A stretch of DNA of 59,668 bases, taken from assembly GCA_020847765.1 (NCBI GenBank), contig JADLBJ010000026.1, positions 1-59,668 of the forward strand, in the 5' to 3' direction. The notes under the pieces were generated by a model. That model ran no database searches, had not been told where the DNA came from, and saw nothing but the letters and a program-made list of their open reading frames with translations. The DNA comes from Dehalococcoidia bacterium. GTDB taxonomy: Bacteria; Chloroflexota; Dehalococcoidia; Tepidiformales; Tepidiformaceae. Shown here in pieces: positions 43,331 to 59,668 of the stretch. Each line of letters begins with the position of its first letter. Within the stretch, counting starts at the first letter, position 1. Position numbers and translations under genes: made by a program.

Positions 43331-45982
43331 TCATGGGCCGGCAAGGATCGTCCAGGCGAGGGCGGAAATGGTGCCGTTCGCCCACCAGTAGGCCTCGCCG
43401 TAGTCAAGGGTGGTGAAGTTGACGGCGCCGGGGACATTGCCGGCGTTCGGGAACCAGGCGAGCCAGCAGCTCGACTGGCCGGCCGGGCAGCCGGCGCCGT
43501 TCGGGCTCCACTTGAAGATGGCAGTCACGCTGGCGGAGACGTCGTTCGTCGCCGGGTTGTCGGGGCTTTCGAGCCCGCGCAGGGCGGCAGAGACCGACAG
43601 GTTGTCGAGGCCGCCCCAGGCGAAGAGGCTGAAGTGGGAGTAGAGGGTATAGGTGAAGGTCCCGCCCGAGCCCCCGCTCACGGTGAAGCGGGCGGCGCCG
43701 CCAGCGGGGTTGGCGCCGCGCGGCGTGGTGACGATGACGTCGATCGCGCCGGCCGGCATACCCACCGGGGTCGTAACGGTGATGGTGGAATCGCTGACGA
43801 CGACGAGGTTGGTGCCGGGCACACCGCCGAACTTGACGCTGGTGGCGCCGAGGAAGCCGGTGCCGGTGATCGTCACGGGTGTGCCGCCGCCAAGCGGGCC
43901 GCCCGACGGGCTGATGGAGAGGATCGTCGGTGGTGCGCTGCCCGTGTAGGTGAAGTTGTCCGCGGTCGTGTTCGCGTTCGGGCCGCTCCCGGTCGTGACG
44001 GTGACGTCGACAACGCCGGCGGAATGCGGTGGCGAGACGACCGCGATCGAGGTGCCCGCCTGGTTGACGGTGAAGGTGAACGTGATCGTGCCGCCGAAGG
44101 CGACGGAGAGGGCACCGCCGAAGTTGGCCCCGGTGATGGTGACGAATGTGCCGCCGGCGGCGGAGCCGGTGTTCGGGGAGACAGACGTAACAATCGGGGC
44201 GGTGCCGTAGTTGAAGTCGTCGGCGGGCGTGTCGGCGCTGATGCCATTGGGCGTGACGACGCGCACGGGGACGACCCCGGCCGCGTGGTCCGGCGCGGTG
44301 ACGGTCAGGAGGCTGTCGCCGGTGACGTTGAGGTTGGTGCCCCCAGTGGTGCCGAAGAGGACGCTCAGGACGCCGGCGGAGAAGCCCGAGCCCGTGACCG
44401 TGACCGTGTATCCGCCGAGGACGGAGCCACCGCTCGGGCTGACGCCGCTGACGGTGGGTGCGAGCGAACCGTAGAGGTAGTCGTCGTCGGCGGTGTTCGG
44501 GCTCGGAACGCCGGAGACGATGACCTGGACGTCCACTGTGCCGGCAGACTGGCCGGGGGCGACGGCGGTGAGCTGCGTCGAGTTGTTCACGCTGACGCCG
44601 GTGGCGACGAATCCGCCGAAGCGCACCGTGGTGCTGCCGCTAACGAAGCCGGTGCCATTGACGACGACCGTGTTGCCGCCCGCGGTCGGGCCGCCGTCGG
44701 GGTTCAGCGAGGTGACCGTTGGCCCGGGCGCGTAAACGAAAGCGAGCGGAAGGGTGGTGGAGCCCGAGGTGCCGGACACCATGACGTCGACTGCACCGGC
44801 GGCATGGCCCGGGGTGAGAACGGTCACGCTCGTGGCGCTGACGGTCTGGATAGAGCCAGGACTGCCGCCGAAGGTGACGCTGCTGGTACCGGCGAGTGCC
44901 GTACCCGTCACGGTGACGAGCGTCCCGCCGCCCGTGGTGCCGCTGTGCGGGAAGATGTCGACGAGTGCCGGACCGCCGGTGTAGGTGTAATCGTCGTCGA
45001 CCGTGTTCGGATTCGGGATGCTGCCCACAACGACCTGGACATCGGCGGTGCCGGCGGCGTGCGCGCGGGGAACAACAGAGGCTGCGGTGTCGGTGATGGT
45101 GCCGCAACTCGTGGGCGTGAGGCCGTCGAAGGTGATGTCGGAGCAGGAGAGCCCGCTGAAGCCTTTGCCGACGATCGTGGTCGAGGCACCGCCGCCGGCC
45201 GGGCCGGTACTGGGGTTGACGGCGTAGATGACCGGGCCGGCCCCGTAGACGAAGTCGTCCGCTGACGTGTCGGGGCTGGAGCCATTGCCGTTGTCGACGC
45301 GAATGCTCACGAGGCCGGCCGAGAGCTGTGGCGGTGCTGTGACGGTGATCTGCGTGGACGAGATGGAGCAGCTCGAGGCGGGCACGATACCGAACAGGAT
45401 CGAGCTGCAGGTGGTGCCCGTGAAGTTCGTGCCGGTGAGGGTGACGAGGGCGCCGCCGGCCTTCTGGCCGCTATGGGGGTAGATGGAGGTGATGGTGGGT
45501 AGCGGTGCGCCGTCGTTGTCGAGGATGGTGATCGTCGCCGTGTCGGTAACGCCGATGACGCCGTCGCCGCTGACGGAGGTGATTCGCAGCAGGATCGTAC
45601 GGCTGCCGTCGACGACGAAGTTGTTGATTGTGTTGAGGATGTTGAACCGGGACGCGGTCAGCGCGCCCGCACCGAAGGTGAAGGTGAAATCGTGACCGCC
45701 GCAGCCGCCGAGGGGAGTGTAATCGGCGGGGCAGCTGGCGGAGCCGCCGACGATGTTGACAGTGGCGGTGGCGGAGTCTGTGCCGCCGCTGCGGTTGATG
45801 GTGATGGTGGGGGCGCCGCCTTCGACGACCGTATAGGTGGCCGAGCTGAAGACGAAGGTGCCAGTCGCGGCGGACGCTGGGCGCCAGTGGCTCCCGACGA
45901 GGGCGGCGAAGACGGCAACAAGGACGAGGGTGGGAAGCGCCAGGCGGCGCGAGGCCCGTTGAGGTGGCAGGTGAGGCCGCAT
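43331..45982 (-). CDS. Large secreted protein with a Calx-beta-like domain and seven IPT/TIG domains
   Basis: 883 residues from ATG 45982, preceded by GGGGAGGAG. The signal peptide (LALPTLVLVAVFAALVGSHW, cleaved near ASA-ATG) leads into a Calx-beta-like domain (YTVVEGGAPTITINRSGGTD, ITSVSGDGVIGVTDTATITI). Seven IPT/TIG modules of about 88 residues follow, starting PTITSIYPHSG, PVIYAVNPSTG, PALVDIFPHSG, PTVTSLNPDGG, PTVSGVSPSGG, PIVTSVSPNTG and PTILSISPSGG. The last 100 residues (YTLYSHFSLFAWGGLDNLSV) form an unknown C-terminal domain. There is no membrane anchor. It is probably a cell-surface or secreted adhesive protein. The opposite strand has a long open frame, which I treat as a shadow. 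Confidence 0.9.
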   Translation of the reverse strand: MRPHLPPQRASRRLALPTLVLVAVFAALVGSHWRPASAATGTFVFSSATYTVVEGGAPTITINRSGGTDSATATVNIVGGSASCPADYTPLGGCGGHDFTFTFGAGALTASRFNILNTINNFVVDGSRTILLRITSVSGDGVIGVTDTATITILDNDGAPLPTITSIYPHSGQKAGGALVTLTGTNFTGTTCSSILFGIVPASSCSISSTQITVTAPPQLSAGLVSIRVDNGNGSSPDTSADDFVYGAGPVIYAVNPSTGPAGGGASTTIVGKGFSGLSCSDITFDGLTPTSCGTITDTAASVVPRAHAAGTADVQVVVGSIPNPNTVDDDYTYTGGPALVDIFPHSGTTGGGTLVTVTGTALAGTSSVTFGGSPGSIQTVSATSVTVLTPGHAAGAVDVMVSGTSGSTTLPLAFVYAPGPTVTSLNPDGGPTAGGNTVVVNGTGFVSGSTTVRFGGFVATGVSVNNSTQLTAVAPGQSAGTVDVQVIVSGVPSPNTADDDYLYGSLAPTVSGVSPSGGSVLGGYTVTVTGSGFSAGVLSVLFGTTGGTNLNVTGDSLLTVTAPDHAAGVVPVRVVTPNGISADTPADDFNYGTAPIVTSVSPNTGSAAGGTFVTITGANFGGALSVAFGGTITFTFTVNQAGTSIAVVSPPHSAGVVDVTVTTGSGPNANTTADNFTYTGSAPPTILSISPSGGPLGGGTPVTITGTGFLGATSVKFGGVPGTNLVVVSDSTITVTTPVGMPAGAIDVIVTTPRGANPAGGAARFTVSGGSGGTFTYTLYSHFSLFAWGGLDNLSVSAALRGLESPDNPATNDVSASVTAIFKWSPNGAGCPAGQSSCWLAWFPNAGNVPGAVNFTTLDYGEAYWWANGTISALAWTILAGP

Positions 45983-46087
45983 GGTGAACTCCTCCCCGGT
46001 TCGGATGCGCGCGAGCGGGCGGGCGCCAAGGCCAGGGACCGCCCGCACTCTACCCCGAGACGCTCAGACGAGCCACAACCAGAAGGG

Positions 46088-46978
46088 TCAGGGCTCCATG
46101 CCGGCCATTGCCATGAGCTCCGCGGCGAGGCTCCGACCGAGAGCGGCGGCTGTCTCCGCCGGTCCTGCCGTTCGCGAGCGGGCAATTCTGCCGCCGGGCG
46201 CCAGCAGGGCATGCAGCTTCAGCGTCGTCCCGAAGTGCTCGGCGTAGGCGGCCGCCGGAAAGGAGCAGCCGGCGTCGATCGCGGCGAGGAAGCTCCGTTC
46301 GGCGGTGACAGCGCGGCGGACGAGCGGGTCGTCGACGGCGGCGAGGAGCGCGCGCGTGGGCGCGTCGTCGGCACGGCACTCCACGGCGAGTGCGCCCTGG
46401 GCAGGGGCGGGGAGGAAGTCGTGAACGGCGAAGACCTCGGTTGCCCTGTCGTCGCAGCCCAGGCGACGGAGCCCTGCGAGGGCGAGGACGGTAGCGTCGT
46501 ACTCGCCGGCCGCTACCTTCGCCAGGCGTGTGTCGACGTTGCCGCGCATCGGGCGAACGTCGAGATCGGGGCGTGTCGCGCGCAACTGGGCCTCGCGGCG
46601 GGGGCTCGAGGTGCCGACGACGGCGCCCGCGGGGAGCTGGCGGAGGGTGTGGCCGCGGCGGCTGACAAGGGCGTCGCGGGGGTCGTCGCGGAGGGGAACT
46701 GCGGCCAGGACGAGGCCCTCCGGGCGCCGCGTGGGCAGGTCCTTATAGCTGTGGACGGCGAAGTCGACCTCGCCCTGGCGGATCGCCTCCTGGAGGGCCG
46801 CAGTGAACCAGCCGACGCCCTCGGCCAGGGCAGACTTCTGGTCGCGGTCGCCGGCGGTGGTGACCGTGATGAGGACAACCTCAAGACCCGGATGGGTAGC
46901 GCGTAGGCGGTCGGCGACGAGCCCGGCCTGGGCCAGAGCGAGCTTGCTGCCCCTCGTGCCAAGACGAAGCGTGGTCAT
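46088..46978 (-). CDS. hemC: Porphobilinogen deaminase (hydroxymethylbilane synthase)
   Basis: 296 residues from ATG 46978. Conserved regions are LRLGTRGSKLALAQAGLVAD, VDFAVHSYKDLPTRRPEGL, VVGTSSPRREAQLRATRPDL and ERSFLAAIDAGCSFPAAAYA, which holds the Cys that binds the dipyrromethane cofactor. It joins four porphobilinogens. hemL ends 2 bases upstream on the same strand, so the two are co-transcribed. It is the last gene of the tetrapyrrole operon. Confidence 0.95.
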   Translation of the reverse strand: MTTLRLGTRGSKLALAQAGLVADRLRATHPGLEVVLITVTTAGDRDQKSALAEGVGWFTAALQEAIRQGEVDFAVHSYKDLPTRRPEGLVLAAVPLRDDPRDALVSRRGHTLRQLPAGAVVGTSSPRREAQLRATRPDLDVRPMRGNVDTRLAKVAAGEYDATVLALAGLRRLGCDDRATEVFAVHDFLPAPAQGALAVECRADDAPTRALLAAVDDPLVRRAVTAERSFLAAIDAGCSFPAAAYAEHFGTTLKLHALLAPGGRIARSRTAGPAETAAALGRSLAAELMAMAGMEP

Positions 46979-46980
46979 GC

Positions 46981-48252
46981 CTAGGCCATGGCCGCGCGGA
47001 GGGCGGCGGCAGCCGCTTCGACAGTCGCGTCGACGTTCGCCTCGCTGTGGGCCGCCGAGACGAACCATGTCTCAAACTGTGAGGGTGGGAGGAGGACGCC
47101 GGCGTCGCGCATGGCGCGGTGGAATCGCCCGAACGCAGCCGTGTCTGACTGCCGCGCCTCGGTGTAGTCGCGCGGAGGCGTGGAGCGCCAGAACAGGGTG
47201 AGCATGGAGCCGCAGCGAACGACACTCGCGGGCACACCCGCCCGCCGGATGGCGGTCGTCAGACCGTCTTCGAGGTGGCGAGCCGACTCGGCGGCGCGAA
47301 GGTAAGGGGTGCCTGCGAACAGGACGTCCAGGGTGGCGGCGCCCGCAGCCATCACGAGCGGATTCCCGCTAAGCGTGCCCGCCTGATAGACGGGGCCTTC
47401 GGGGGCGAGTAGCGCCATGACGTCGGCCCGGCCGCCGACGGCGCCGACGGGAAGGCCACCGCCAATGATCTTCCCCAGGCAGACGAGGTCGGCCTCGGGA
47501 AGGACGCCTGAGAGGCCGTAGTGAAGGCGGAAGCCGGTGATCACCTCGTCGGCGACGAGGAGGGTGCCGTGCGCGCGTGGAAGTGCGCGGAGCGCGGCCA
47601 GGAACGGTTCTTCGGGTAGGACGAGGCCCATGTTCGCCGCCATCGGCTCGACGATGACGGCGGCCGTCTGGTCCGCGTGGGCGGCGAACCAGGCGCTGAG
47701 CGCGGCGGGGTCGTTATACGGGAGAACGGCGGTCAGCGCGGCGACGGAGGGCGGCACGCCGGCCGAATCGCTCAGGCCGAGCGTGGCGACGCCGCTCCCG
47801 GCCCTGGCCAGGAGGCCGTCGCTGTGGCCGTGGTAGCACCCGTCGAACTTGACGACGAACTCCCGCCCGGTTGCGGCGCGGGCGAGACGGATGGCGGTCA
47901 TCGTCGCCTCCGTTCCGGAATTGACGAAGCGCAGCCGCTCGAGGCCGGTCGCGTCCTGGATGCGCTGACCGAGGGCGACCTCGCCCGGAGTGAGCGCCCC
48001 GAAGGCGGTGCCGGCGGCGGCCGCCCGCTGGACGGCTTCGACAACAGCAGGATGCGCGTGGCCGAGGAGAAGCGGGCCGAAAGCGCCGACGAAGTCGACG
48101 TAGGGACGGCCGTCGGCGTCGAAGACCTGGGCGCCTCCACCGCGTGCGATCGGCAGCGGTTCTCCTCCGACCGCTTGGAAGGAGCGCACCGGGCTGTTCA
48201 CGCCGCCGGGAAAAAGACTGCGGGCGAGGTCGAGGGTGTGCGCGTTATCCAT
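46981..48252 (-). CDS. hemL: Glutamate-1-semialdehyde 2,1-aminomutase
   Basis: 423 residues from ATG 48252. PLP-enzyme features are FPGGVNSPVRSFQAVGGEPL, RFVNSGTEATMTAIRLARAA, KFDGCYHGHSDGLLARAGSG, LLVADEVITGFRLHYG and the cofactor Lys in CLGKIIGGGLPVGAVGG. It makes 5-aminolevulinate in the C5 pathway. hemA is not in the window. It overlaps the upstream DR2241-like gene by 8 bases. Confidence 0.96.
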   Translation of the reverse strand: MDNAHTLDLARSLFPGGVNSPVRSFQAVGGEPLPIARGGGAQVFDADGRPYVDFVGAFGPLLLGHAHPAVVEAVQRAAAAGTAFGALTPGEVALGQRIQDATGLERLRFVNSGTEATMTAIRLARAATGREFVVKFDGCYHGHSDGLLARAGSGVATLGLSDSAGVPPSVAALTAVLPYNDPAALSAWFAAHADQTAAVIVEPMAANMGLVLPEEPFLAALRALPRAHGTLLVADEVITGFRLHYGLSGVLPEADLVCLGKIIGGGLPVGAVGGRADVMALLAPEGPVYQAGTLSGNPLVMAAGAATLDVLFAGTPYLRAAESARHLEDGLTTAIRRAGVPASVVRCGSMLTLFWRSTPPRDYTEARQSDTAAFGRFHRAMRDAGVLLPPSQFETWFVSAAHSEANVDATVEAAAAALRAAMA

Positions 48253-48904
48253 CGCTGCCAGCGTATCGCGCCGCCAGGTACTGTTCGCGCAGCTCGTTGC
48301 CGGGGCGGTCGAAGGCGGCGAAGGGCACCTGCGGGTCAATCGGCGCGGACGGCGGCCGTTTCTGTTCCCAGAGAGCGGCTTCGCGGCAGAGGGAGACAAG
48401 GACGCTGCAGGCTTCGGGGCAGGGGATGTCTCCGTCCGCCGGCAGTGCACCGCGCCAGACGGGCGACCTGACGCAGAGCCGGCAAAGGAGATGGCTCGCC
48501 AGCTGGCGGCCGGCGGGGCTGAGCCGGGCAGCCGCGGCGTACCGTCCGCTCTGGCGAGAGAGGACCTCATCGAAGGAGACGACGCGCAAGGTGCCGTCCA
48601 CCCAGGCCGCGGAATGGGCCTGGGCGAGAGGGTAAACGGCGTCGAGCGCGGCGGCGAGAGCCTCGAGGTCCGGGCAGCGGGCAAACCAGCCGGGCCGCAG
48701 GGAGCGCGCGCCGGAAAGGGGCCGATAGCGACCGGCGACGTCGAAGCGGGCGAGGCTGCGAAGGACGGGCGGCGAGGGCGCCACCTCCGCCAGATCGCCG
48801 GAACCGGCCGGACCTTCGATTACGGCCTCGTCTGTCCCGAGGTGCGCAGTCAGCTCTCCGACAAGGGCGGTGATGGCACCCGCGGGGACCGGCACCGTCA
48901 CCAT
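48245..48904 (-). CDS. DR2241-like iron-sulfur protein of the siroheme operon
   Basis: 219 residues. The N-terminal part resembles the stabilising domain of Deinococcus DR2241 (GSGDLAEVAPSPPVLRSLAR, AWVDGTLRVVSFDEVLSRQS). The C-terminal half has Cys residues spaced to hold a 4Fe-4S cluster: LLCRLCVRSPVWRG, then IPCPEACSVLVSLCREA. In Deinococcus I recall this region fused to a CbiX domain; here CbiX is the next gene upstream, overlapping by 7 bases, so the two halves are separate. It may donate electrons or iron to the chelatase; this is inference. Family naming is from memory. Confidence 0.55.
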   Translation of the reverse strand: MVTVPVPAGAITALVGELTAHLGTDEAVIEGPAGSGDLAEVAPSPPVLRSLARFDVAGRYRPLSGARSLRPGWFARCPDLEALAAALDAVYPLAQAHSAAWVDGTLRVVSFDEVLSRQSGRYAAAARLSPAGRQLASHLLCRLCVRSPVWRGALPADGDIPCPEACSVLVSLCREAALWEQKRPPSAPIDPQVPFAAFDRPGNELREQYLAARYAGSDG

Positions 48905-49632
48905 GCGGCAGCCTCCTCGGCGAGATCGAGGATGACGTCGGCAACGGCGGGATGGGTGCCCGCGGCGGCGGCGTAACGCAGGCGCCGGCCACCGCTGCGG
49001 AGCTCGGCACCGGCGAGGGCGAGCTCCGCCGGGATCGAGCTACCGACATGCCAGCCGTCGGCCACGAAGAGGGGAACCAGGACGACCGCCGGGGCGGCGA
49101 AGAGCGCAAAGACGTCGCGCATATTCGGCTCCTGCTCGAGGAAGACGGCCGCGACTTCCGGGAAGGCGCGGTATTCGTCGACGAACTGAGCCTGAAGGTA
49201 GACGTTCGCCTCTGAGGTCGCGTTGCGGGGAGTGCCGTGGCCGAGGACGGCGAGGCCCTCGTCGCCCGTGGCGCCTGCCTCCCAGGCGCGCTGGAGGACG
49301 ACTCGGGCGAGGGTCGGGTGGGAGCCGACGGGAGGAGTGTAGCGGACGCACCGGCCGTCGACGCAGCTCAGGCGACCGGTGAGCCGCAGCTCGCGCGGTA
49401 GCACGTCCTGGACGAAGTAGCCGTCGGAGATGAAGACCGGCACGACGGTCACGTCCTCGGCGCAAAGGCCGTCGAAGGCACGGGCAAACGACGGCTCTTC
49501 CTTCCAGAAGACGGCGCGCACCTCGTCGAATTGCCCGAGCGAGGCCACCCGCTCGGCGTGGGCATGGATCGGCGCGCTCGCGTTCGGGTCGAGGTGCGAG
49601 CCGTGGGCAGCGAGGACGAGAGCGCGAGTCAC
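48898..49632 (-). CDS. cbiX: CbiX-type sirohydrochlorin chelatase
   Basis: 244 residues, the two-repeat form. Metal-site His residues are in ALVLAAHGSHLDPNASAPIH and LAVLGHGTPRNATSEANVYL. It has a clear internal duplication. It inserts Fe2+ (siroheme) or Co2+ (cobalamin) into sirohydrochlorin; the neighbours hemC, hemL and cobA-hemD favour the siroheme route. The ATG overlaps the stop of the upstream dehydrogenase (ATGA). It ends with the overlap on the Fe-S gene. Confidence 0.88.
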   Translation of the reverse strand: MTRALVLAAHGSHLDPNASAPIHAHAERVASLGQFDEVRAVFWKEEPSFARAFDGLCAEDVTVVPVFISDGYFVQDVLPRELRLTGRLSCVDGRCVRYTPPVGSHPTLARVVLQRAWEAGATGDEGLAVLGHGTPRNATSEANVYLQAQFVDEYRAFPEVAAVFLEQEPNMRDVFALFAAPAVVLVPLFVADGWHVGSSIPAELALAGAELRSGGRRLRYAAAAGTHPAVADVILDLAEEAAAW

Positions 49633-50153
49633 GGCCCGGGCTCGGCGCGCTCGCGGCTGAGGCGCGCGGCGCGTTCGCGGCGGGCGGCCTCGACGAGCCT
49701 GCCCCAGCCAGGGCCAAGGGCGGCGACGACCCGTTCGCGCAGCTCCCGTGCGAGGAGGGGTGAGGCGCCGCCGGTAGAGACAGCAACTGCCAGGTCGCCG
49801 TCGCGGAGGGTTGCGGGAGTGAAGAACGTGCTCTCCTCCTGGCGATCGGCGACGAGCACCAGGATGCGCCGTTCCCGGGCGAGCCGTCCGACTTCAGCAT
49901 TGACAGCGCGGTCGTCCGTGCAGGCGAAGACGAGGGCGACTGGAGGGTCGCCGTCCAGGTCGGCGGGGGCGAACAGGCGCTCGACAACGGAGACCTCGGC
50001 GATCTGCCGAATCTCGTCGTGGACGGCGGGCGCGACCACGACCACAGGGAAGCCGGCGTCGACCAGGTTGCGGATCTTGCGGGCCGCGACCGTGCCCGCT
50101 CCGACGACGAGCGCACGTCCGCCCGCGGGGAGAAGGTCCACGATCAGTCCCAT
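49629..50153 (-). CDS. Precorrin-2 dehydrogenase (CysG N-terminal/Met8-like)
   Basis: 174 residues from ATG 50153. The NAD-binding motif is RALVVGAGTVAARKIRNLVD, then LVFACTDDRAVNAEVGRLAR and FFTPATLRDGDLAVAVSTGG. It oxidises precorrin-2 to sirohydrochlorin, the substrate of the next gene product, CbiX. There is no ferrochelatase extension. It overlaps the cobA-hemD stop by 10 bases. A short form of SirC. Confidence 0.9.
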   Translation of the reverse strand: MGLIVDLLPAGGRALVVGAGTVAARKIRNLVDAGFPVVVVAPAVHDEIRQIAEVSVVERLFAPADLDGDPPVALVFACTDDRAVNAEVGRLARERRILVLVADRQEESTFFTPATLRDGDLAVAVSTGGASPLLARELRERVVAALGPGWGRLVEAARRERAARLSRERAEPGP

Positions 50154-51655
50154 GTCAGTGCCTCTTCGAGGGCCGCCACGAGCGCGGAAAGGGAGGGCTC
50201 GCGGGCTTCGGCGTCGACACGGCCGAAGACCGCGTGGACAGCTGCGCTCGTCTGGGGTCCCATAGTGACGAGCTTGGCTGAGGCGGGCAGCGGGGCACTG
50301 CCGAGCGCGGCATGAAGGGCCCGGGCTGTCGAGCCGCTGGTGAAGGCGACGGCGTCGGCCTCGGCGAGAGCGCGCAGTCGCTCGTCGTCGAGTGGCTGAG
50401 GGAGCGTCGTGTAGGCGTCTAGTTGTTCCACCACGGCGCCCCGCGCGCGGAGGGAGCTGGCGAGCCGCTCGCCGGCCAGGGCGGACAGCGGCAGTAGCAC
50501 AAGGGTGCCGGCGACGTCTGGAAGCTCGCGTGCGAGGGCGTCGGCCGAGGAGCAGGACGGGAGGAAGTCTGGGCGGAGGCCGTTCTCGCGCAGAGCGGTG
50601 GCCGTGGCGTCGCCGACAGCAGCGAGGCGCACGCCGGCCAGTGCGCGAGCGTCCGCCCCGGCCCCGGCCAGCGCCGCGAAGAAGGCGGCGACACCGTTCG
50701 CGCTCGTGAACGCGATCCAGTTCCATGGCGCGGGCAGGCGACCCGCCAGTGTGAAGGACGGCAGCGGCTCCGAGCGGACGACGGGGGCTTCTATCACGAA
50801 GGCGCCGCGGTCCTCGAGGAGGGTGGCGAGGCGGCCGGCGCTGCTGCGAGCACGCGTCACCACCACGCGACGGCCGGCAAGTGGCCCGGGGGTATACCAG
50901 GCGAGTGCCTCGGCGAGGCCAACGACGGCACCGACAACGGTGACGACGGGTGACTCCAGCTTCGCGGCCGCAGCACGGCTGGCGATGGTGCCGACCGATC
51001 CGACGACGACTTGCTGGTCGGGCCGGGTGCCCCAGCGGACGCAGGCGGCGGGCGTTCCGGGGTCGCGGCCGGCCGCTTGCAGGCGTTCCATGGCGAAGGC
51101 AAGGGTGGCCACGCCCATGAGGATCACGAGCGTGTCGGCCCGGGCGGCCGCCTCCCAATCGACCGAGTCCGCCTCGGCGGCGGCGCCGCTGCCCGTGATC
51201 GCCATGAACGCGCTGGCCAGGCCACGGTGCGTGACGGGGATGCCGGCGTAGGCGGGTGCGGCCACGACGGAGGAGACGCCGGGAACGACGGTGAACGGGA
51301 TTCCAGCGCGGCGGCAGGCGAGAGCCTCCTCGCCGCCGCGGCCGAACACGAACGGGTCACCTCCTTTGAGGCGCACAACCTGCTTGCCTGCGCGGGCGTG
51401 TTCGACGAGCAGGCCTTCGATCTCCGCCTGGGGAAGCGCGTGGCTACCGGCGCGCTTCCCCACGTAGACGAGCTCCGCTGCCGGCGGGGCGTGGCGGAGG
51501 AGGGCCGGCGCGGCGAGGGCGTCGTAGAGGACGACGTCGGCATGCGAGAGCGCCCGCGCGGCGGCGAGCGTCAGGAGGCCGGGGTCGCCCGGGCCGGCGC
51601 CCACGATCCAGACACGTCCAGGGGGAGGCGCATCCACGGCGCCGCTTATTGTCAC
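50144..51655 (-). CDS. cobA-hemD: Uroporphyrinogen-III C-methyltransferase/uroporphyrinogen-III synthase fusion (CobA-HemD)
   Basis: 503 residues from GTG 51655. The CobA half (about 1-250) has VWIVGAGPGDPGLLTLAAAR, KQVVRLKGGDPFVFGRGGEE and FTVVPGVSSVVAAPAYAGIP. The HemD half (about 255-503) starts GRRVVVTRARSSAGRLATLL and ends LVTMGPQTSAAVHAVFGRVD. So hydroxymethylbilane is closed to uroporphyrinogen III and then methylated to precorrin-2 by one protein. This fusion is common in Firmicutes and other monoderms. First gene of the leftward operon; divergent from the kinase gene at 51725. Confidence 0.94.
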   Translation of the reverse strand: MTISGAVDAPPPGRVWIVGAGPGDPGLLTLAAARALSHADVVLYDALAAPALLRHAPPAAELVYVGKRAGSHALPQAEIEGLLVEHARAGKQVVRLKGGDPFVFGRGGEEALACRRAGIPFTVVPGVSSVVAAPAYAGIPVTHRGLASAFMAITGSGAAAEADSVDWEAAARADTLVILMGVATLAFAMERLQAAGRDPGTPAACVRWGTRPDQQVVVGSVGTIASRAAAAKLESPVVTVVGAVVGLAEALAWYTPGPLAGRRVVVTRARSSAGRLATLLEDRGAFVIEAPVVRSEPLPSFTLAGRLPAPWNWIAFTSANGVAAFFAALAGAGADARALAGVRLAAVGDATATALRENGLRPDFLPSCSSADALARELPDVAGTLVLLPLSALAGERLASSLRARGAVVEQLDAYTTLPQPLDDERLRALAEADAVAFTSGSTARALHAALGSAPLPASAKLVTMGPQTSAAVHAVFGRVDAEAREPSLSALVAALEEALTWD

Positions 51656-51724: not shown

Positions 51725-52792
51725 ATGACCGAGACCGTGCCGGGCATCAACTACGAGAACGTCTCACGCTTTTTCGCCGAGCATCTCGAGGGCGGCGCGG
51801 CGCCACTCACGTTCGAACTGATCGGTGACGGGCGCTCCAACCTGACCTACCGCGTGACCGGGGGCGGCCGCGTCTGGGTACTGCGCCGCCCGCCGCTGGG
51901 GCATGTACTGCCGACGGCCCACGACATGGTGCGCGAGTTCCGCGTGCTCACAGGCCTCGCGAAAGCGGGCTTCCCCGCGCCCCTTCCGCTGGCGCTCTGC
52001 GAGGACTCAGCGGTGAACGACTTTCCGTTCTACGTGATGGACTTTCGCGACGGCGTGATCCTCGTTTCGGAGATGCCAGAGGGCTACGCCGCGACGCCGG
52101 CAGAGCGCCGCCGGATGAGCCTGGCGCTGGTGGACACGCTCGTGCAATTGCACAGCGTCGACTACGAGGCGGTCGGCCTGGGCGACTTCGGGCATCCGGA
52201 GGGGTACCTGGAACGCCAGGTGCGCCGCTGGGCGCAGCAATGGGAGCGTTCGAAGACGGCGGATCTGCCGGCAATCGACGAGCTGATCCGGAGGCTGAAC
52301 GCGGCCATTCCCCCTTCGCCGCCGCCAACCGTCGTGCACGGCGACTATCGCCTGGGGAACATGATCCTGGGCTATGACGACCCGGGGAAAGTGATCGCCG
52401 TGCTGGACTGGGAGATGTCGACGCTGGGCGACCCACTGTCTGACCTGGGCTGGACGCTCGTCTACTGGGGGAACGAGGACGACCCACCGGAGCGGCTGGC
52501 CATCCGCCCCCACGCGCGCGTAACCGCGCGCCAAGGCTTTCTGACGCGGGCGGAGATCGCGGCGGAGTACGGGAAGCGCAGCGGGCGCAACGTGGAGCAC
52601 ATCGACTTCTACCAGGTGTTCGCGAACTACAAGCTGGCCGTCATCACGGAGGGCATCTACGCGCGTTACCTGAAAGGGCAGACGGTGGGCGCGGGCTTCG
52701 CCGGCATGGAGCGCTCAGCGGTGAAGCTGGTCGAGCTGGCACTGGCGCAGGCCGACCGTTCGTCCGACCTGCGGCTGCGCGGGGGCGCCTGA
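51725..52792 (+). CDS. Phosphotransferase (APH) family protein
   Basis: 355 residues of the aminoglycoside phosphotransferase-like kinase fold. The nucleotide-binding region is ELIGDGRSNLTYRVTGGG and WVLRRPPLGHVLPTAHDMVR. The catalytic loop is VVHGDYRLGNMILGYDDPGK, with the metal Asp in VLDWEMSTLGDPLSDLGWTL. This subgroup is common beside acyl-CoA dehydrogenases and enoyl-CoA hydratases; its substrate is unknown. An enoyl-CoA hydratase gene follows. It starts at a leaderless-type promoter. Confidence 0.88.
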   Translation: MTETVPGINYENVSRFFAEHLEGGAAPLTFELIGDGRSNLTYRVTGGGRVWVLRRPPLGHVLPTAHDMVREFRVLTGLAKAGFPAPLPLALCEDSAVNDFPFYVMDFRDGVILVSEMPEGYAATPAERRRMSLALVDTLVQLHSVDYEAVGLGDFGHPEGYLERQVRRWAQQWERSKTADLPAIDELIRRLNAAIPPSPPPTVVHGDYRLGNMILGYDDPGKVIAVLDWEMSTLGDPLSDLGWTLVYWGNEDDPPERLAIRPHARVTARQGFLTRAEIAAEYGKRSGRNVEHIDFYQVFANYKLAVITEGIYARYLKGQTVGAGFAGMERSAVKLVELALAQADRSSDLRLRGGA

Positions 52793-52902
52793 CGGCTAGC
52801 GCGTGGGCGGCCGCTTGGACCCCGAACGCCGGGCGCGCTTGCGTCGCCGCGCTTCGGCCCGTAGCGTGCAGCCCACCCTCGGACGAGGAGCAGAGGCACA
52901 AC
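52793..52902. other. GC-skew switch point in an intergenic region
   Basis: Upstream of here the + strand is G-rich regardless of gene direction; downstream it is C-rich (see findings). The gap itself holds no dif-like AT-rich site, terminator or promoter that I can point to. The Shine-Dalgarno of the next gene is GGACGAGGAG. Confidence 0.45.
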
Positions 52903-53793
52903 ATGGGCACCCCCGAGAACCTCGCGCTGGATCGCGTCGGTACCGACGGCCGCGTCGGCCGGATCACGCTCAACCGGCCCGAAAAGATGAACGCTCTTTC
53001 CCAGGAGCTGCTGTTCGAGCTGAACGGCGCCCTGCATGACTACGAGGCCGACCCGTCGGTCCGCGTCGTCGTGCTCCGCGGTGCCGGCCGCACCTTCAGC
53101 GCCGGCTATGACCTGGCTGCGCGCGGCGGCGGCTCCGACGCCATCGTCCGCCGGTACCAGCAGGCGGACGACCATGGCCGCCGGCTGCTCATGGGCATCC
53201 GCACAGGCATGCAGCAGATCACCGACATCCACATGTACTTCTGGAATATGGCCAAGGTAACGATCGCCCAGGTGCACGGCTACGCCCTCGCGGGTGGCTG
53301 CGAGCTGGCGATGATGGCCGATCTCGTCACCGCGGCGGACGACGCGCAGCTGGGCCACCCCGGGCTGCGTGGTCTCGGTACAAGCCGCACGGGCGTGATC
53401 TGGCCCCTCGTCATCGGCATGCGCAAGGCGAAGGAGCTCTATTACACGGGCGACAGCGTTTCCGGCCGCGAAGCCGAGCGCGTCGGCATGATCAACCATG
53501 CCTGGCCGAAAGAGGAGCTGGAGGAGCGCACCGTCGCCCTTGCCGACCGTATCGCCACGCTCTCCGCCGACCATCTCGCCATCCTCAAGCTCAACATGAA
53601 CCGCTTCTACGAGAACATGGGCATCTACTCGAGTGTCCGGAGCTCGACCGACCTGGACGCGGCCGGTCAGTACACAGCCCAGGCCTACCAGTGGCAGGAC
53701 AAGATGCGCGAGTCGTTCGAGCAGGGCGGCGGGCTCAAAGCTGCGCTCGAATGGCGCGACACGCCCTACCGCGAGAACCGCGCGCTCCGCTGA
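52903..53793 (+). CDS. Enoyl-CoA hydratase/isomerase family protein
   Basis: 296 residues. Crotonase fold: GRITLNRPEKMNALSQELLF, VVLRGAGRTFSAGYDLAARG (oxyanion hole), then QVHGYALAGGCELAMMADLV (second oxyanion-hole Gly and acid residue) and GREAERVGMINHAW. It may hydrate or isomerise an enoyl-CoA. An insertion around residues 80-110 (RRYQQADDHGRRLLMGIRTG) is longer than in short crotonases. Codon use is C-ending, unlike genes before 52.8 kb. Stop and next start overlap as TGATG. Confidence 0.88.
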   Translation: MGTPENLALDRVGTDGRVGRITLNRPEKMNALSQELLFELNGALHDYEADPSVRVVVLRGAGRTFSAGYDLAARGGGSDAIVRRYQQADDHGRRLLMGIRTGMQQITDIHMYFWNMAKVTIAQVHGYALAGGCELAMMADLVTAADDAQLGHPGLRGLGTSRTGVIWPLVIGMRKAKELYYTGDSVSGREAERVGMINHAWPKEELEERTVALADRIATLSADHLAILKLNMNRFYENMGIYSSVRSSTDLDAAGQYTAQAYQWQDKMRESFEQGGGLKAALEWRDTPYRENRALR

Positions 53794-54224
53794 TGTCCCC
53801 TGGCGGCCGGCGTCCGGTGAGGAGGGCGCCTGAGGTGCCCCGCCGCATCGCCCCCGACGACAGGGTGTGGCTCGGCGAGTCGGGCCTCGTCGATTCCGGT
53901 GTCGAACTGGCTGCCGTCCGGCTCCATTGTGGCGGGCCGGTCAGCTGGTACCTGCGCTGGCGACGTCGGGGTGCGCTGACCCTGGGCAAGCATGTCTGGT
54001 TCGCCCGGGGAGACCGCTCTGGCGACCGCGCCCTCCTCGCCCACGAGCTCGTGCACGTGGGGCAGTACCAGGAACTCGGCGTCCTGCGCTTCTTCGTGCG
54101 CTATCTCAGGGATCTGGCCCGCGCCCGCTTCCGCTACAGCGCCAGGTTGCCGCTGGAAGCGCCCGCCTACGCCCGCGGACGAGAGGCGCGCACCCGGTTG
54201 GACGCGTCGCGGCCCGACGCCTAG
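53793..54224 (+). CDS. Small HExxH metalloprotease-like protein (DUF4157-like)
   Basis: 143 residues from ATG 53793, which overlaps the enoyl-CoA hydratase stop. The zinc motif is RALLAHELVHVGQYQELG, with a likely third ligand Glu in LPLEAPAYARG. The length and flanks (LTLGKHVWFARGDRSGDR) resemble the DUF4157 domain. There is no signal peptide. Most DUF4157 proteins are longer and act in toxin or contractile systems; this one is minimal, so the role is open. It ends 4 bases inside the convergent TPR gene. Confidence 0.68.
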   Translation: MSPGGRRPVRRAPEVPRRIAPDDRVWLGESGLVDSGVELAAVRLHCGGPVSWYLRWRRRGALTLGKHVWFARGDRSGDRALLAHELVHVGQYQELGVLRFFVRYLRDLARARFRYSARLPLEAPAYARGREARTRLDASRPDA

Positions 54225-55501
54225 GAGTTCGCGCGGCTCCCGGTCTCGCGCAGCAACCGCAGAAACTCATTGTCGCCCTGCAACGCCGCCAGCTTCGCGT
54301 CGGCCGCCGCTTCACGCGCGTAGGCGGGATCGAGCGCGAGCGCCCGTCGCAGCCGGCTGAGCGCCTCCTCCCTGTCACCCAGAACGGCCGCGGCCTGGCC
54401 CGCTCCGTAATGGGCGGCGGCGTCCTCCGGGTCGTTGGCGGCGGCCAGCTGAAAATCAGCCAGCGCACGTGCCGGGTCGCCGCCGTGGAGGCAGGCGAGT
54501 CCCCGGTTCACCATCACCGTGGTGTCGTTCGGGTTGATGTCCAGGGCGGCATTGAAGTCGGCCAGCGCTGTGTCGTAGGCCTCGCGATAGAGGTGCAGCA
54601 TGCCCCGGTTGTTGAGCGCGTCGGCGTCGTCGGGCTGGAGAGCGAGCGCCCGGTTGTAATCCTCGAGCGCGCCGTCGTACTCGCCCGCGCGCGTGCGGGC
54701 GTTCGCGCGGTTGTAGTACCCGGCAGTTAGCCCGGGGTCTATCTCCAGGGCCCGCGAATACCGGTCGATCGCCAGGCCGTATTGCCCCACGTTGAAGTAG
54801 ACGTTCCCTTCGTCGAGGTATGACTCGGCGTCGCGCCCCGTGTGCGGGACGACGGGCGGCGGCGCCACGTCCGCCAGCGCCTCTTCGATCGCGCCGGTCA
54901 ACTCCCGCTCGCCACTGATCGACTCTTCGACCGTCGACCCGGCGGTCGGCAATTCCCTCGCGGGCTCTTCGGCCGCGACGGCACCTGCCAGGTCGCTCGC
55001 GAGCGGCAGCGGCTCGGGCGCCGCTGCTGCTTCGACCTCCGCCTCGGCGACGGCGGGCTCGGTGGCGAGCTCCGGGGCACTGTACTGCGCTTCGCCCGCC
55101 AGGTCATTCACAAGCGGCAGCAGCTCGGGCGCCGCGACTGCTTCTATCTCGGCCTCAGCGACGGCGGGCTCGGTGGCGAGCTCCGGGGCACTGTACTGGG
55201 CTTCGCCTGCCAGGTCGCTCGCGAGCGGCAGGGTCTCCGGCGCTGCTTCTGCTTCGATCTCGGCCTCGGCGACGGCGGGCTCGGTGGCGAGCTCCGGGGC
55301 ACTGTACTGGGCTTCGCCCGCCAGGTCGGCCGGGGGTTGGCTGCCAGGTTCTGGCGTTGTGACGGGGACTTCGACGACGGGACTCTGCCATGCCGGCTCG
55401 CGCGCCGTCACCTCCTGTCTGCTGCGCCACCATCGCCAGAGGAGCACCCCCGTGGCCACCAGCAGGAGCAGGATGACCAGACGCCGCAGCTGCTTCTTCA
55501 C
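54221..55501 (-). CDS. Membrane-anchored TPR protein with an Ala/Glu-rich repeat region
   Basis: 426 residues. One N-terminal membrane helix (LVILLLLVATGVLLWRWW) is followed by a low-complexity acidic region with three 37-residue repeats (DLAGEAQYSAPELATEPAVA), then four to five TPRs: AESYLDEGNVYFNVGQYGLA, GYYNRANARTRAGEYDGALE, ADALNNRGMLHLYREAYDTA, TTVMVNRGLACLHGGDPARA. It is a scaffold on the membrane surface with its TPRs in whichever compartment the tail faces. Ligands unknown. The gene runs into the one at 55498 by 4 bases. Confidence 0.8.
   Translation of the reverse strand: MKKQLRRLVILLLLVATGVLLWRWWRSRQEVTAREPAWQSPVVEVPVTTPEPGSQPPADLAGEAQYSAPELATEPAVAEAEIEAEAAPETLPLASDLAGEAQYSAPELATEPAVAEAEIEAVAAPELLPLVNDLAGEAQYSAPELATEPAVAEAEVEAAAAPEPLPLASDLAGAVAAEEPARELPTAGSTVEESISGERELTGAIEEALADVAPPPVVPHTGRDAESYLDEGNVYFNVGQYGLAIDRYSRALEIDPGLTAGYYNRANARTRAGEYDGALEDYNRALALQPDDADALNNRGMLHLYREAYDTALADFNAALDINPNDTTVMVNRGLACLHGGDPARALADFQLAAANDPEDAAAHYGAGQAAAVLGDREEALSRLRRALALDPAYAREAAADAKLAALQGDNEFLRLLRETGSRANS
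54995..55327 (-). repeat. Three tandem 111-bp repeats inside the TPR gene
   Basis: The unit is 111 bases (37 codons). Copies run 55327-55217, 55216-55106 and 55105-54995 and are nearly identical; a fourth begins with DLAG only. The last two differ at a few codons (for example ETLPLAS, ELLPLVN, EPLPLAS). In-frame repeats of this kind expand and contract by recombination. Confidence 0.85.
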
Positions 55502-55908
55502 GGGCGCTCCTCCTCTGCGGCGGCGCGCTCCAGCAAGTGCTCCGTCACCGCGACCAGGCCGTTGTAGGCGTAGACGACGTAATCTCGAGGGTGCAGGTCC
55601 CGCTTCTTGCGAGTCTCTTTGCGCGCGGTCACGGGATCCCAGGAGCCGGTCATCTCGATCGACTCGTGGTCGATCCCGAATTCCAGCTCGTACAGCTCGC
55701 CGTCTTCGCAGACGACGACGCAGCCGCGGTCGGCGGTGGCCGCCGCTCCCTCCTCACATTCGATCGCGTCCGTGAACAGCGCGTTCGGGAACGGCGGGAA
55801 CGGTCGCAGCTCCGCGCAGGCCTCCTGAAGGAGGCTCCGCAGCTGGGCCGCCGTGCGCTCGAGCACCACGTCGGCCTGCGCCTTGCGCAGCAACGGGTCC
55901 CTCTCCAT
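55498..55908 (-). CDS. Hypothetical 136-aa protein
   Basis: Start ATG 55908. It begins MERDPLLRKAQADVVLERTA and has CEEGAAATADRGCVVVCEDG and ELEFGIDHESIEMTGSWDPV before a Lys/Arg-rich tail (TARKETRKKRDLHPRDYVVY). It is soluble with four Cys residues but no clear motif. I do not recognise the family. It overlaps the TPR gene by 4 bases, so they are co-transcribed. TATACT (55918-55923, minus strand) ends 9 bases before the ATG. Confidence 0.6.
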   Translation of the reverse strand: MERDPLLRKAQADVVLERTAAQLRSLLQEACAELRPFPPFPNALFTDAIECEEGAAATADRGCVVVCEDGELYELEFGIDHESIEMTGSWDPVTARKETRKKRDLHPRDYVVYAYNGLVAVTEHLLERAAAEEERP

Positions 55909-55976
55909 CCCGGCAAAAGTATAAACGCCTATGCCCTTGCCGACGAGCAAGGCGGTTCGGCCCGCTCACAAAGGGA

Positions 55977-56001
55977 GGGGCACGTCTTGCGAACGTGCCC
56001 C
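55977..56001 (-). terminator. Terminator-like hairpin after the DUF2171 gene
   Basis: Read on the minus strand, GGGGCACGT (56001-55993) pairs with ACGTGCCCC (55985-55977) around a 7-base loop, a perfect 9-bp stem, followed by TCCCTTTGTG. It is 25 bases after the DUF2171 stop. Confidence 0.65.
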
Positions 56002-56025
56002 CTTACGCTCTGTTTGCGAGCGGGA

Positions 56026-56271
56026 TCAGTACTGGGCGCCCTCCGGCGGCGTGCTCATCCATTCGCGCATTGCCTGGTCGCCGGGCCGGTCCACGTGGAC
56101 CTTGTCGTCCACGCTGGTCACCCAGCTCATAGGAATCCAGTGATGCTGGCCGCGCTGGTCCTTCGTCAGCTTGATCGTGCCGCCCGCGTCGACGTGGTCG
56201 ACCGTGCCAAACTGCTCGTTGTTCGTGCAGACGACCGGCATGTGCTCTTTGATCTTTGTCGCTTCAACCAT
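56026..56271 (-). CDS. DUF2171 domain protein
   Basis: 81 residues from ATG 56271, with AGGAGGT just upstream. The family core is visible: KIKEHMPVVCTNNEQFGTVD, HVDAGGTIKLTKDQRGQHHW and IPMSWVTSVDDKVHVDRPGD. The PRC-barrel-like DUF2171 proteins are short; some are linked to stress. Function unknown. Monocistronic, with its own terminator. Confidence 0.85.
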   Translation of the reverse strand: MVEATKIKEHMPVVCTNNEQFGTVDHVDAGGTIKLTKDQRGQHHWIPMSWVTSVDDKVHVDRPGDQAMREWMSTPPEGAQY

Positions 56272-56435
56272 AGGTCGTACCTCCTGTCGCTCCTTCGAGC
56301 GTCTCACCGCAAGCCTCGCGCCGGGCGCCGCCGACCGGCGGCCCGGCTGACAGTTCTGTGACAGCGCGTGACCGAGGTCTCGCCGCTGCATCCCGGCCAC
56401 TTTTCCGCTGCCGCACGATCGCGCACGCTTGCCGC

Positions 56436-58880
56436 ATGGCGCAGGTCTCGTCACCGCCGTCGCTTCCCGCCGATCTGCGCGGCCTCACCACCACCGACGC
56501 TCGGGCGCGCGCCGAAGCGGGCCTTGCGAACGTCGACACGTCTCGTCAGCGCACGGACGCCGACGTCGTCCGGGCCAATACGCTGACTTTCTTCAACGTC
56601 GTCCTGGCCGCCATGATCGTCGCGCTCTTCGCCGTCGGCGAGTTCCGCGACGGCCTCTTCGTGGGTGTCGTCGTCGCCGCCAACGTTGCCGTCTCCACGA
56701 TCCAGGAACTGCGCGCCGTCCGCACCCTGCGCGAGCTCGTCGCCCTCACTGCACCGCAGACGACGGTCGTCCGCGACGGCGTGGAGACACCGATCCTTGC
56801 CGAGCACGTCGTTCAGGGCGACCTCCTCCACCTCAAGCAGGGCGACCAGGTGGTCGCCGACGGCCGCGTCGTCGCCCGTTCGTGCGAGGTCGACGAGTCG
56901 CTCCTCACCGGCGAGTCCGATTCCGTCCGCAAGGGCCCCGGCGAAGAGCTGCGCTCCGGCAGCTTCTGCACGGCCGGCGACTGCTACTACACCGCCGAGC
57001 AGGTGGGCGCTAACTCCTATGCCGTCAAGCTCACGACCGACGCGCGCGAGCTGGTCAAGCGCTCCACGCCGCTCCAGGTGCGTTTCAAGCGCATCCTCCG
57101 CGTGCTGCTCACGGCCACCGGTGTGCTCGCCGTCCTCCTGATGATCTCCTACAACGTCGGCGACAAGGGGTTCGCCGAGTCGATCAAGGCGACGACGGCG
57201 ACCGTGACGACGGTCGTCCCCACGGGCCTCCTCCTCGGTATGACGGTCGCCTTTGCGGTGGGCGCTGTGCGCGTCTCGCGTTCGGGCGCCATCGTTCAGG
57301 ACATCAACGCGGTCGAGGCGCTGAATTACACCGACGTCATCTGCCTGGACAAGACGGGGACGATCACGGCCAATCGACTGACCCTGCACGACGTGATCTG
57401 GGCCCCCGGCCAGCAGTCGGCACGGCCCTGGCTCGCCTCCTTCGTCCTCGCCAGCGCGGGCGACAGCAAAACGGCGGGAGCTCTCGCCGACGCACTGGGC
57501 AAGGACGCCAACGAGTCGCGCCCGGCCGGGTCCGTTCCCTTCAATTCGGAGCGTCGGTGGAGCGCGATGCGCCTGGAACGTCTGGGCGAGCGGCGCGTGT
57601 TCGTCCTCGGCGCACCGGAGACCGTCCTGCCGCACGCCAGGGACGCGGAAGGGTTGCAGGATGCCTACGAGGCAGCAAGCACCACCGGTCTGCGCGGCGT
57701 CGTCTTCGCCGAGATCGAGGGTCTGCCCGATGCCGGCCAGCCCCTCGGCTCCGTCACGCCCCTCGCGCTCATCACCCTGGGCGACGTCCTCCGGCCGGAA
57801 GTTCGCCAGGCCTTCGCCATGATGGAAAAGCTTGGGATCGAGCCGAAGCTCATCAGCGGCGACAATCCCCATACGGTCGCCGCCCTGCTCAAGCAGCTTG
57901 GCATCAGGACCAGGGGCGGCGTCATCTCGGGCAACGACCTCTACGGGCTCAGCGAGCGCGAGTTCGCCCGTGCGGTGGATGAGAACAGCGTCTTCGGCCG
58001 CATCGCCCCCGCTCAGAAGGCGCAGATCGTGGGCGCCCTGCGCGAGCAGGGCCACTTCGTCGCCATGGTCGGCGACGGCGCCAATGACGTGCAGGCGCTG
58101 CGCACGGCCGACGTGGCTGTCGCCATGGCCTCGGGCACGGCGACAGCGCGCGCGGTGGCGGGCATCGTCCTCCTCCAGGATTCCTTCAACGCCCTCATCC
58201 GTGGCGCGCGCGAAGCGACGGCCGTCCTCGGCAACGCTGCCCGCCTGAGCAAGCTGTTCCTGGCCAAGAGCCTGTACGCCTACCTCCTCATCGTCGCCAC
58301 GAACATGCTCGGCCTGGACTTCCCGTTCCTTCCCCGCCAGGGCACCGTGACCGCGCTGCTGACGCTCGGCATCCCGGCGATCTTCATCTCCGTCAGCGTG
58401 CCGCCGCCTGACGCCGGTCGCGACTTCACACGGAACGTGCTCCGCTTCGCTCTCCCCGCCTCGTTCGCGTTAGCCGTTGCGGCGGTGCTCGTGCACCTCC
58501 TCGTGGAAGGCTTCCTCGGGCGCAGCACCGACCAGGCACGCACGCTCGTCTCGCTCACGGTGGGCATCACTGGTCTCTTCTTCATGCTTGAAGTCCTCGG
58601 TTTCGAAGGAGCCTCCTGGCGCAGCCTGACCCGGCCCGTCCTCACCCTCGCTCTGACCCTCGCCCTCGGTGCCGCCATGCTCATGACGATCTACACGCCG
58701 TCGCTGCGCTCGTTCTTCGAGTTTCACCGCGTGCACGTCGGCGACTGGTTCATCGTCGGGACGGCCGTAGCCGCCTCTCTGGCCGGGCAGTTCGTCCTGA
58801 GCAACTACTGGCAGGAGCTGCTCGACACGCTCACGGCGAAGCCGAAAAGGAACGAGGAGCTGCGCGGCCGCGCCATCTGA
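56436..58880 (+). CDS. P-type ATPase (HAD-IC family) with an unusual ion-site motif
   Basis: 814 residues from ATG 56436 (a GTG at 56358 is also in frame). It has an actuator domain with VDESLLTGESDSVRKG, the phosphorylation motif VICLDKTGTITANRLT, FNSERRWSAMRLERL, and the hinge VAMVGDGANDVQALRTADVA. Membrane helix 4 reads TVVPTGLLLGMTVAFAVGAV. There are no N-terminal metal-binding domains and no heavy-metal CPx motif. The helix-4 motif is PTGL rather than the PEGL of Ca2+-type pumps, so the ion is uncertain. It is nearest to the group of bacterial E1-E2 ATPases such as Exp7. Confidence 0.87.
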   Translation: MAQVSSPPSLPADLRGLTTTDARARAEAGLANVDTSRQRTDADVVRANTLTFFNVVLAAMIVALFAVGEFRDGLFVGVVVAANVAVSTIQELRAVRTLRELVALTAPQTTVVRDGVETPILAEHVVQGDLLHLKQGDQVVADGRVVARSCEVDESLLTGESDSVRKGPGEELRSGSFCTAGDCYYTAEQVGANSYAVKLTTDARELVKRSTPLQVRFKRILRVLLTATGVLAVLLMISYNVGDKGFAESIKATTATVTTVVPTGLLLGMTVAFAVGAVRVSRSGAIVQDINAVEALNYTDVICLDKTGTITANRLTLHDVIWAPGQQSARPWLASFVLASAGDSKTAGALADALGKDANESRPAGSVPFNSERRWSAMRLERLGERRVFVLGAPETVLPHARDAEGLQDAYEAASTTGLRGVVFAEIEGLPDAGQPLGSVTPLALITLGDVLRPEVRQAFAMMEKLGIEPKLISGDNPHTVAALLKQLGIRTRGGVISGNDLYGLSEREFARAVDENSVFGRIAPAQKAQIVGALREQGHFVAMVGDGANDVQALRTADVAVAMASGTATARAVAGIVLLQDSFNALIRGAREATAVLGNAARLSKLFLAKSLYAYLLIVATNMLGLDFPFLPRQGTVTALLTLGIPAIFISVSVPPPDAGRDFTRNVLRFALPASFALAVAAVLVHLLVEGFLGRSTDQARTLVSLTVGITGLFFMLEVLGFEGASWRSLTRPVLTLALTLALGAAMLMTIYTPSLRSFFEFHRVHVGDWFIVGTAVAASLAGQFVLSNYWQELLDTLTAKPKRNEELRGRAI

Positions 58881-58949
58881 TTGGCCTCCTTCGCCGCGGC
58901 CTTCGCGTGCATGACGCCCCGCCATCTGGCCGTCAACGCGTCGGGCCGC

Positions 58950-58987
58950 TAAAATGCCTCAACGGGCCTCCCCCTATGGGAGGCCCG
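58950..58987 (+). promoter_or_regulatory. purA promoter and 5'-terminal stem-loop
   Basis: TAAAAT (58950-58955) precedes a perfect 10-bp hairpin: CGGGCCTCCC (58963-58972), loop CCTAT, and GGGAGGCCCG (58978-58987). The expected transcription start falls at the foot of the stem. GGAG (58987-58990) follows and ATG is at 59000. Confidence 0.55.
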
Positions 58988-58999
58988 GAGTGTGTCCGT

Positions 59000-59668
59000 A
59001 TGCCTATTGTCGTCGTCGTCGGCGGTCAGTGGGGCGACGAAGGCAAAGGCCGCATCGTCGACCTGCTCGCGCGGAAAGCGCGTATCGTCGCTCGCTATTC
59101 GGCCGGGAACAACGCCGGCCACACCATCGTCAACGACCGCGGTGAGTTCAAGCTCCACCTGGTGCCGGCAGGCATCTTCTATCCCGAGAAGACCTGCGTC
59201 ATCGGCAATGGTGTCGCCATCGACCCGGAGGTTCTGCTCGACGAGATCGACAACCTCGAGGCGAAGGGCATCGACACCGGCAAGCTCGTCGTCAGCGACC
59301 GGGCCCAGCTGATCATGCCCTGGCACAAGCTCATCGATCAGCTCGACGAGAAGCTGCGCGGGGACGCCGCCATCGGCACGACGGGCAAGGGCGTCGGCCC
59401 GTGCTTCATCGACAAGGTCGCCCGGCGGGGCATCCGCGTCGCCGACCTCCTCCAGCCCGAAGACCTGATGGCCCGCATCCGGACAGTGCTCGATTACCAG
59501 AACCGCGTTATCACGGGTGTCTATGGCGGTGCGCCGATCGCCTTCGACTCGTGCCTGGAGCGCTACCTCGAGTTCGGGCGTCGCCTCCGCCCCTACGTGG
59601 CCGACGTTCAGGAGATCGTCCTGGACGCCCACCAGCATGGCGACTACGTCCTGCTCGAAGGCGCCCAG
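59000..59668 (+). CDS. purA: Adenylosuccinate synthetase, N-terminal 223 residues (cut by window end)
   Basis: The fragment carries the GTP-binding signature VVVGGQWGDEGKGRIVDLLA, YSAGNNAGHTIVND, and IGTTGKGVGPCFIDKVARRG. It converts IMP and aspartate to adenylosuccinate in AMP synthesis. The rest of the gene lies outside the window; no frameshift is seen in what is present. Its mRNA probably starts with the stem-loop described before it. Confidence 0.96.
   Translation, partial: MPIVVVVGGQWGDEGKGRIVDLLARKARIVARYSAGNNAGHTIVNDRGEFKLHLVPAGIFYPEKTCVIGNGVAIDPEVLLDEIDNLEAKGIDTGKLVVSDRAQLIMPWHKLIDQLDEKLRGDAAIGTTGKGVGPCFIDKVARRGIRVADLLQPEDLMARIRTVLDYQNRVITGVYGGAPIAFDSCLERYLEFGRRLRPYVADVQEIVLDAHQHGDYVLLEGAQ

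Follow-up and report, generated by a model that had tools for sequence, protein, structure and literature searches.

The window analysed here (59,668 nucleotides) is an entire contig of a metagenome-assembled draft genome, which comprises 2.50 Mb in 288 contigs and is 78.7% complete with 4.7% contamination. The source genome belongs to the same family as Tepidiforma (Chloroflexota), a genus placed by NCBI in the Tepidiformales. The features around the junction discussed below are collected in Table 1. The tetrapyrrole gene block contains hemC, a hemL-like aminotransferase gene, and genes encoding DR2241-like, CbiX, NAD-binding/sirohaem, and TP_methylase-HEM4 proteins. Scanning of the intergenic gap at the junction revealed no parS, dif-like, promoter-like, or terminator-like site, and no second copy of the gap was found elsewhere in the DNA compared. 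Only short, imperfect inverted repeats occur near the junction, and no pair of them marks out the gap. An Rfam scan of the window gave no match.

Table 1. Features of the window around the GC-skew step, with coordinates in the window, strand, and the basis of each assignment
Feature	Coordinates	Strand	Basis or remark
Tetrapyrrole gene block, divergent from phosphotransferase	46088..51655	-	Pfam; synteny in G013, G019, G022, G027
Phosphotransferase (APH family), complete, last gene of left block	51725..52792	+	Pfam PF01636; full-length alignment to family orthologues
GC-skew step interval	52732..53028		Changepoint fit on strand-corrected third codon positions; raw cumulative skew
110-base intergenic gap (junction)	52793..52902		Between two complete genes
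Enoyl-CoA hydratase/isomerase, complete, first gene of right block	52903..53793	+	Pfam PF00378; orthologues
Small protein, eCIS core domain	53691..54224	+	Pfam PF13699; start uncertain, probably near or after 53793
TPR protein	54221..55501	-	Linked to the enoyl-CoA hydratase gene in G014 and G002
150-aa protein, no known family	55498..55950	-	Linked to the enoyl-CoA hydratase gene in G014 and G002
P-type cation ATPase, right block	56358..58880	+	Pfam PF00122
purA (adenylosuccinate synthetase), right block, truncated by contig end	58907..59668	+	Pfam PF00709; orthologues mapped in family

The small protein with the eCIS core domain, which adjoins the junction, is solitary. Further to the left, a leftward gene (43331-46048) encodes a 905-aa protein that has a Calx-beta domain and seven or more TIG domains, and its repeats give rise to a string of short spurious ORFs on the opposite strand.

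The initial annotation reported a GC-skew reversal at about 52.8 kb, and our measurements confirmed it. The GC skew of the window is +0.128 over positions 1-52,792 and -0.057 over positions 52,903-59,668, and the cumulative raw skew reaches its maximum at 52,810. According to a changepoint fit on third codon positions corrected for gene strand (15,452 G/C sites), the best single step is located at 52,753 (interval 52,732-53,028), with a likelihood ratio of 249. None of 300 gene-order shuffles matched the observed statistic (shuffle maximum 119 versus 229 observed, on a near-identical gene set). In bins of 5 kb, the strand-corrected third-position skew is flat at 0.23 to 0.33 across the first 50 kb, amounts to 0.19 in 50-52.8 kb, and then falls to -0.10 and -0.12 right of the junction; the two sides are thus of unequal amplitude, about +0.26 versus about -0.11. 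A ramp with a half-width of about 3 kb fits the data equally as well as a sharp step. The hand counts on which the reversal had been based were essentially correct, with G24 and C18 (instead of C17) at 24361-24420 and G15 and C24 at 54241-54300. The proposed switch of rightward genes from G-ending to C-ending codons was also borne out, their third-position skew being about 0 to +0.3 left of the step and about -0.3 right of it.

When flanks of 6.9 kb on either side were compared, the step in the window was 0.157. Steps of this size or larger were found at 0 of 164 positions in the other contigs of the same genome and at 0 of 435 positions in other loci of the family. In two Tepidiforma chromosomes, about 2% of positions show such a step, and about half of those positions are at the chromosomes' own sharp arm boundary.

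An abrupt edge might be expected if the right block were a horizontally acquired foreign island with its own composition, and the closeness of the enoyl-CoA hydratase to proteins in contigs labelled Gammaproteobacteria points in the same direction. However, the genes of the right block are ordinary for the family (best identity 83% for the enoyl-CoA hydratase and 84% for purA), no tRNA was found in the window, and no integrase is among the genes identified. The composition is also the same across the junction: the strand-symmetric tetranucleotide distance between the right arm and the left pieces (0.338) is no larger than that among the left pieces (0.360). The right arm is nearest to the other contigs of its own genome (0.334), compared with 0.342 to 0.479 for the other sampled genomes of the family, among which the nearest, G017, falls only narrowly behind. 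Nothing in the tetranucleotide composition points to separate source organisms for the two sides, and we consider a foreign island highly improbable.

The enoyl-CoA hydratase is mostly 73-83% identical to its family orthologues, and it is about 75-78% identical to proteins from contigs labelled Gammaproteobacteria or Pseudomonadales. This likeness of sequence suggests either a cross-phylum transfer or mislabelled bins.

Gene order in the family bears directly on the junction. The phosphotransferase and enoyl-CoA hydratase genes are neighbours in none of 36 family relatives. The tetrapyrrole block and the divergent phosphotransferase gene, by themselves, keep their order in at least four relatives (G013, G019, G022, and G027), where different genes lie downstream; the left flank is in the ancestral order, and it is the adjacency at the edge that is missing from the relatives. 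On the other side, G014 and G002 also have the enoyl-CoA hydratase gene linked with the TPR gene and the neighbouring gene of the 150-aa protein, in an order that differs from that of the window. In G032, which is Tepidiforma flava YIM 72310 (NZ_CP115149.1, chromosome of 2,767,986 bases), the phosphotransferase (+), purA (-), and enoyl-CoA hydratase (-) genes follow each other in this order within one G-rich arm. The TPR gene has the same direction as the enoyl-CoA hydratase gene in G032 and the opposite direction in the window, and the distance from the enoyl-CoA hydratase gene to purA is about 141 kb in G032 versus about 5 kb in the window.

Two blocks of flat, opposite strand asymmetry meet in or beside the 110-base gap, between intact genes. 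We therefore interpret the skew step, with some confidence but not much, as the border of a chromosome block that has been rearranged, and probably inverted, in the source lineage. This is the best explanation because it accounts together for the flat plateaus, the uncut genes, and the adjacency that no searched relative shares. The stretch with the enoyl-CoA hydratase, TPR, and purA genes would have been inverted into its present site, and it would have kept the strand bias of its former orientation in partly eroded form (about -0.11, compared with +0.26 left of the junction). The other breakpoint would lie past the contig end, 6.9 kb right of the switch. Inverting the corresponding segment of G032 gives the order, strands, and skew sign seen in the window for the phosphotransferase, enoyl-CoA hydratase, and purA genes. 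However, one inversion of that order leaves the orientation of the TPR gene unexplained, so several events would be needed. The different spacing, the equal fit of the 3-kb ramp, and the draft state of the genome likewise count against a rearrangement edge, and no convincing repeat able to mediate an inversion was found at the junction. Edges of inversions or misassemblies of the SkewIT type (PMC7717575) are similar in that the sign of the skew changes abruptly between compositionally similar blocks, but in the window a single edge is visible, and it is known from the draft assembly alone.

The same step with flat flanks could also arise by an assembly misjoin at about 52.8 kb, in which two fragments from this one genome, or from closely related genomes placed in the same bin, were connected in error. 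The fragmentation and contamination of the draft are in line with this, as is the fact that no other genome searched has the adjacency. However, the join lies within a gap of 110 bases and cuts no gene, and coding density is high, so a chance misjoin at such a place is unlikely. In addition, the junction carries neither a repeat nor duplicated sequence, and the tetranucleotide match across the junction, with the right arm nearest to its own genome (only narrowly so relative to G017), counts against a misjoin as well. A misjoin is accordingly rather unlikely.

Two complete relatives, G029 and G032, were sampled at 20 kb every 135 kb. Both chromosomes consist of two arms of opposite skew, which reaches about 0.2-0.27. 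Where G-rich gives way to C-rich, the skew has a sharp local step (about 569 kb in G029, about 1,230 kb in G032) on a background that is near zero for tens of kb, and the change from C-rich to G-rich is gradual across hundreds of kb. The skew does not follow a square wave: in G029, the shift at the C-to-G pole is nearly linear and extends over about 1.5 Mb. Neither tRNA orientation (6 of 11 for each of two genomes) nor the overall gene strand bias (46-58%) distinguishes the arms. Within the G-rich arm of the same chromosome, a stretch of a few kb (2572-2578 kb) has reversed skew, which is possibly a small inversion or an island.

The genes at the G-to-C switch of Tepidiforma are those typical of an origin. 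Five parS sites lie within about 700 bases at the switch in both G029 (560001-580000 sample) and G032 (1215001-1235000 sample). To one side lies rpmH-rnpA, which was identified in G032, and to the other lie yidC, jag, parA, and parB. A third chromosome, G012, shows the same switch locally, together with six parS sites. The arrangement rpmH-rnpA-parS-yidC-jag-parA-parB is the classical origin neighbourhood. No DnaA-box cluster was found in the sampled Tepidiforma DNA. The dnaA gene is located about 370-470 kb from the parS cluster in the three complete chromosomes. In every genome of the family that has a DnaA homologue, the protein scores below the NCBIfam cut-off, except for G007, which has two DnaA matches, one of them above the cut-off.

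According to the usual rule, a change from G-rich to C-rich along the + strand marks a replication terminus, and the switch in the window has this direction. A genuine arm boundary would be either a terminus under the usual sign rule or a relocated origin, if the skew of the family is inverted. The sign of the switch is that of the sharp Tepidiforma boundary and the step is comparable (0.157 versus about 0.25), and in two Tepidiforma chromosomes the genes for the TPR and 150-aa proteins, both of the right block, are 17-26 kb away from that boundary. However, in Tepidiforma the boundary is surrounded by tens of kb with a skew close to zero, while the window remains flat at +0.13, at full amplitude, right up to the edge, and the amplitudes of its two sides are unequal. 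The initial annotation had noted that no dif-like site was visible, and a search of the window with the general dif pattern (up to three mismatches) likewise returned 0 matches; the same search in the source genome and nine relatives found nothing convincing, so a divergent dif in the window is possible. No parS site was found in the window within three mismatches, and no origin-type gene lies near the switch. The source genome carries its origin-type cluster on another contig, C51, where yidC (29,946-30,839) has two parS-like sites nearby, with one mismatch, and where the sign of the skew does not change. We therefore rejected the window as the origin region of the source genome.

The 52.8-kb switch is thus not an origin cluster, and the sole positive sign of a terminus is the direction of the skew. 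It differs from a replication terminus in lacking a dif-like site, in its plateau-and-step shape, and in joining genes that are not adjacent in relatives, and it differs from the Tepidiforma arm boundary in that neither the genes nor the parS sites of the latter are found in the window. Taken as a genuine arm boundary, whether terminus or relocated origin, the switch is rather improbable. The initial annotation, whose interpretation is partly supported, had put a terminus first and an inversion edge or a wrong join second; the latter two fit better with the plateau-and-step shape, the unique adjacency, and the missing dif-like site.

The finding that the G-to-C switch of Tepidiforma falls on a classical origin cluster also means that a change of this sign need not mark a terminus even when it is a genuine replication switch. 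Highly expressed genes are normally co-directional with the replication fork. In G012, G029, and G032, the 16S rRNA, rplB, rpoB, and dnaA genes are directed away from the parS cluster (the far ends of the G012 arms being unsampled), and they are coded on the C-rich strand wherever the flanking skew is known. Because the origin-type cluster lies at the switch and these genes point away from it, an origin at the maximum of the cumulative skew, with a C-rich leading strand, is suggested. The data thus suggest an inverted GC skew in Tepidiforma, opposite in sign to that of nearly all bacteria, although this is unproven. It may well be, although we would stop short of calling it probable, that in Tepidiforma, and perhaps in the entire family, the origin is the cumulative-skew maximum, the leading strand is C-rich, and the skew fades gradually to zero at the opposite pole, in which case the sign in the window could not be taken as the mark of a terminus. 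The sign rule appears to be unsafe here.

Several observations limit this reading. The three Tepidiforma chromosomes represent one genus, with partly conserved gene order (G012, G021, G026, G029, G032, and G034 all share one genus label, g13), and the related genus g12 has its 16S gene on the G-rich strand. The DnaA homologue scores under the family cut-off, and the yidC cluster of other genera is often in a region of weak skew. A preference of highly expressed genes for C-ending codons may by itself be an alternative cause.

A rearrangement edge or a misjoin would be an ordinary event, and the window in that respect offers a useful caution on skew switches in draft genomes. The inverted skew of Tepidiforma, if true, outweighs the step in the window in importance. 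A previous survey of 185 chromosomes found significant negative leading-strand GC skew in only five, none of them below about -0.04 (PMC2031905), and our literature search found no report of inverted skew in Tepidiforma, although this does not establish that it is new. Were replication in Tepidiforma to start at the parS/yidC cluster, the leading strand would be C-rich by about 0.2, compared with these rare and small published cases. In that event, skew-based origin prediction would choose the wrong pole in Tepidiforma, and the cause of GC skew would become testable in a cultured genus.
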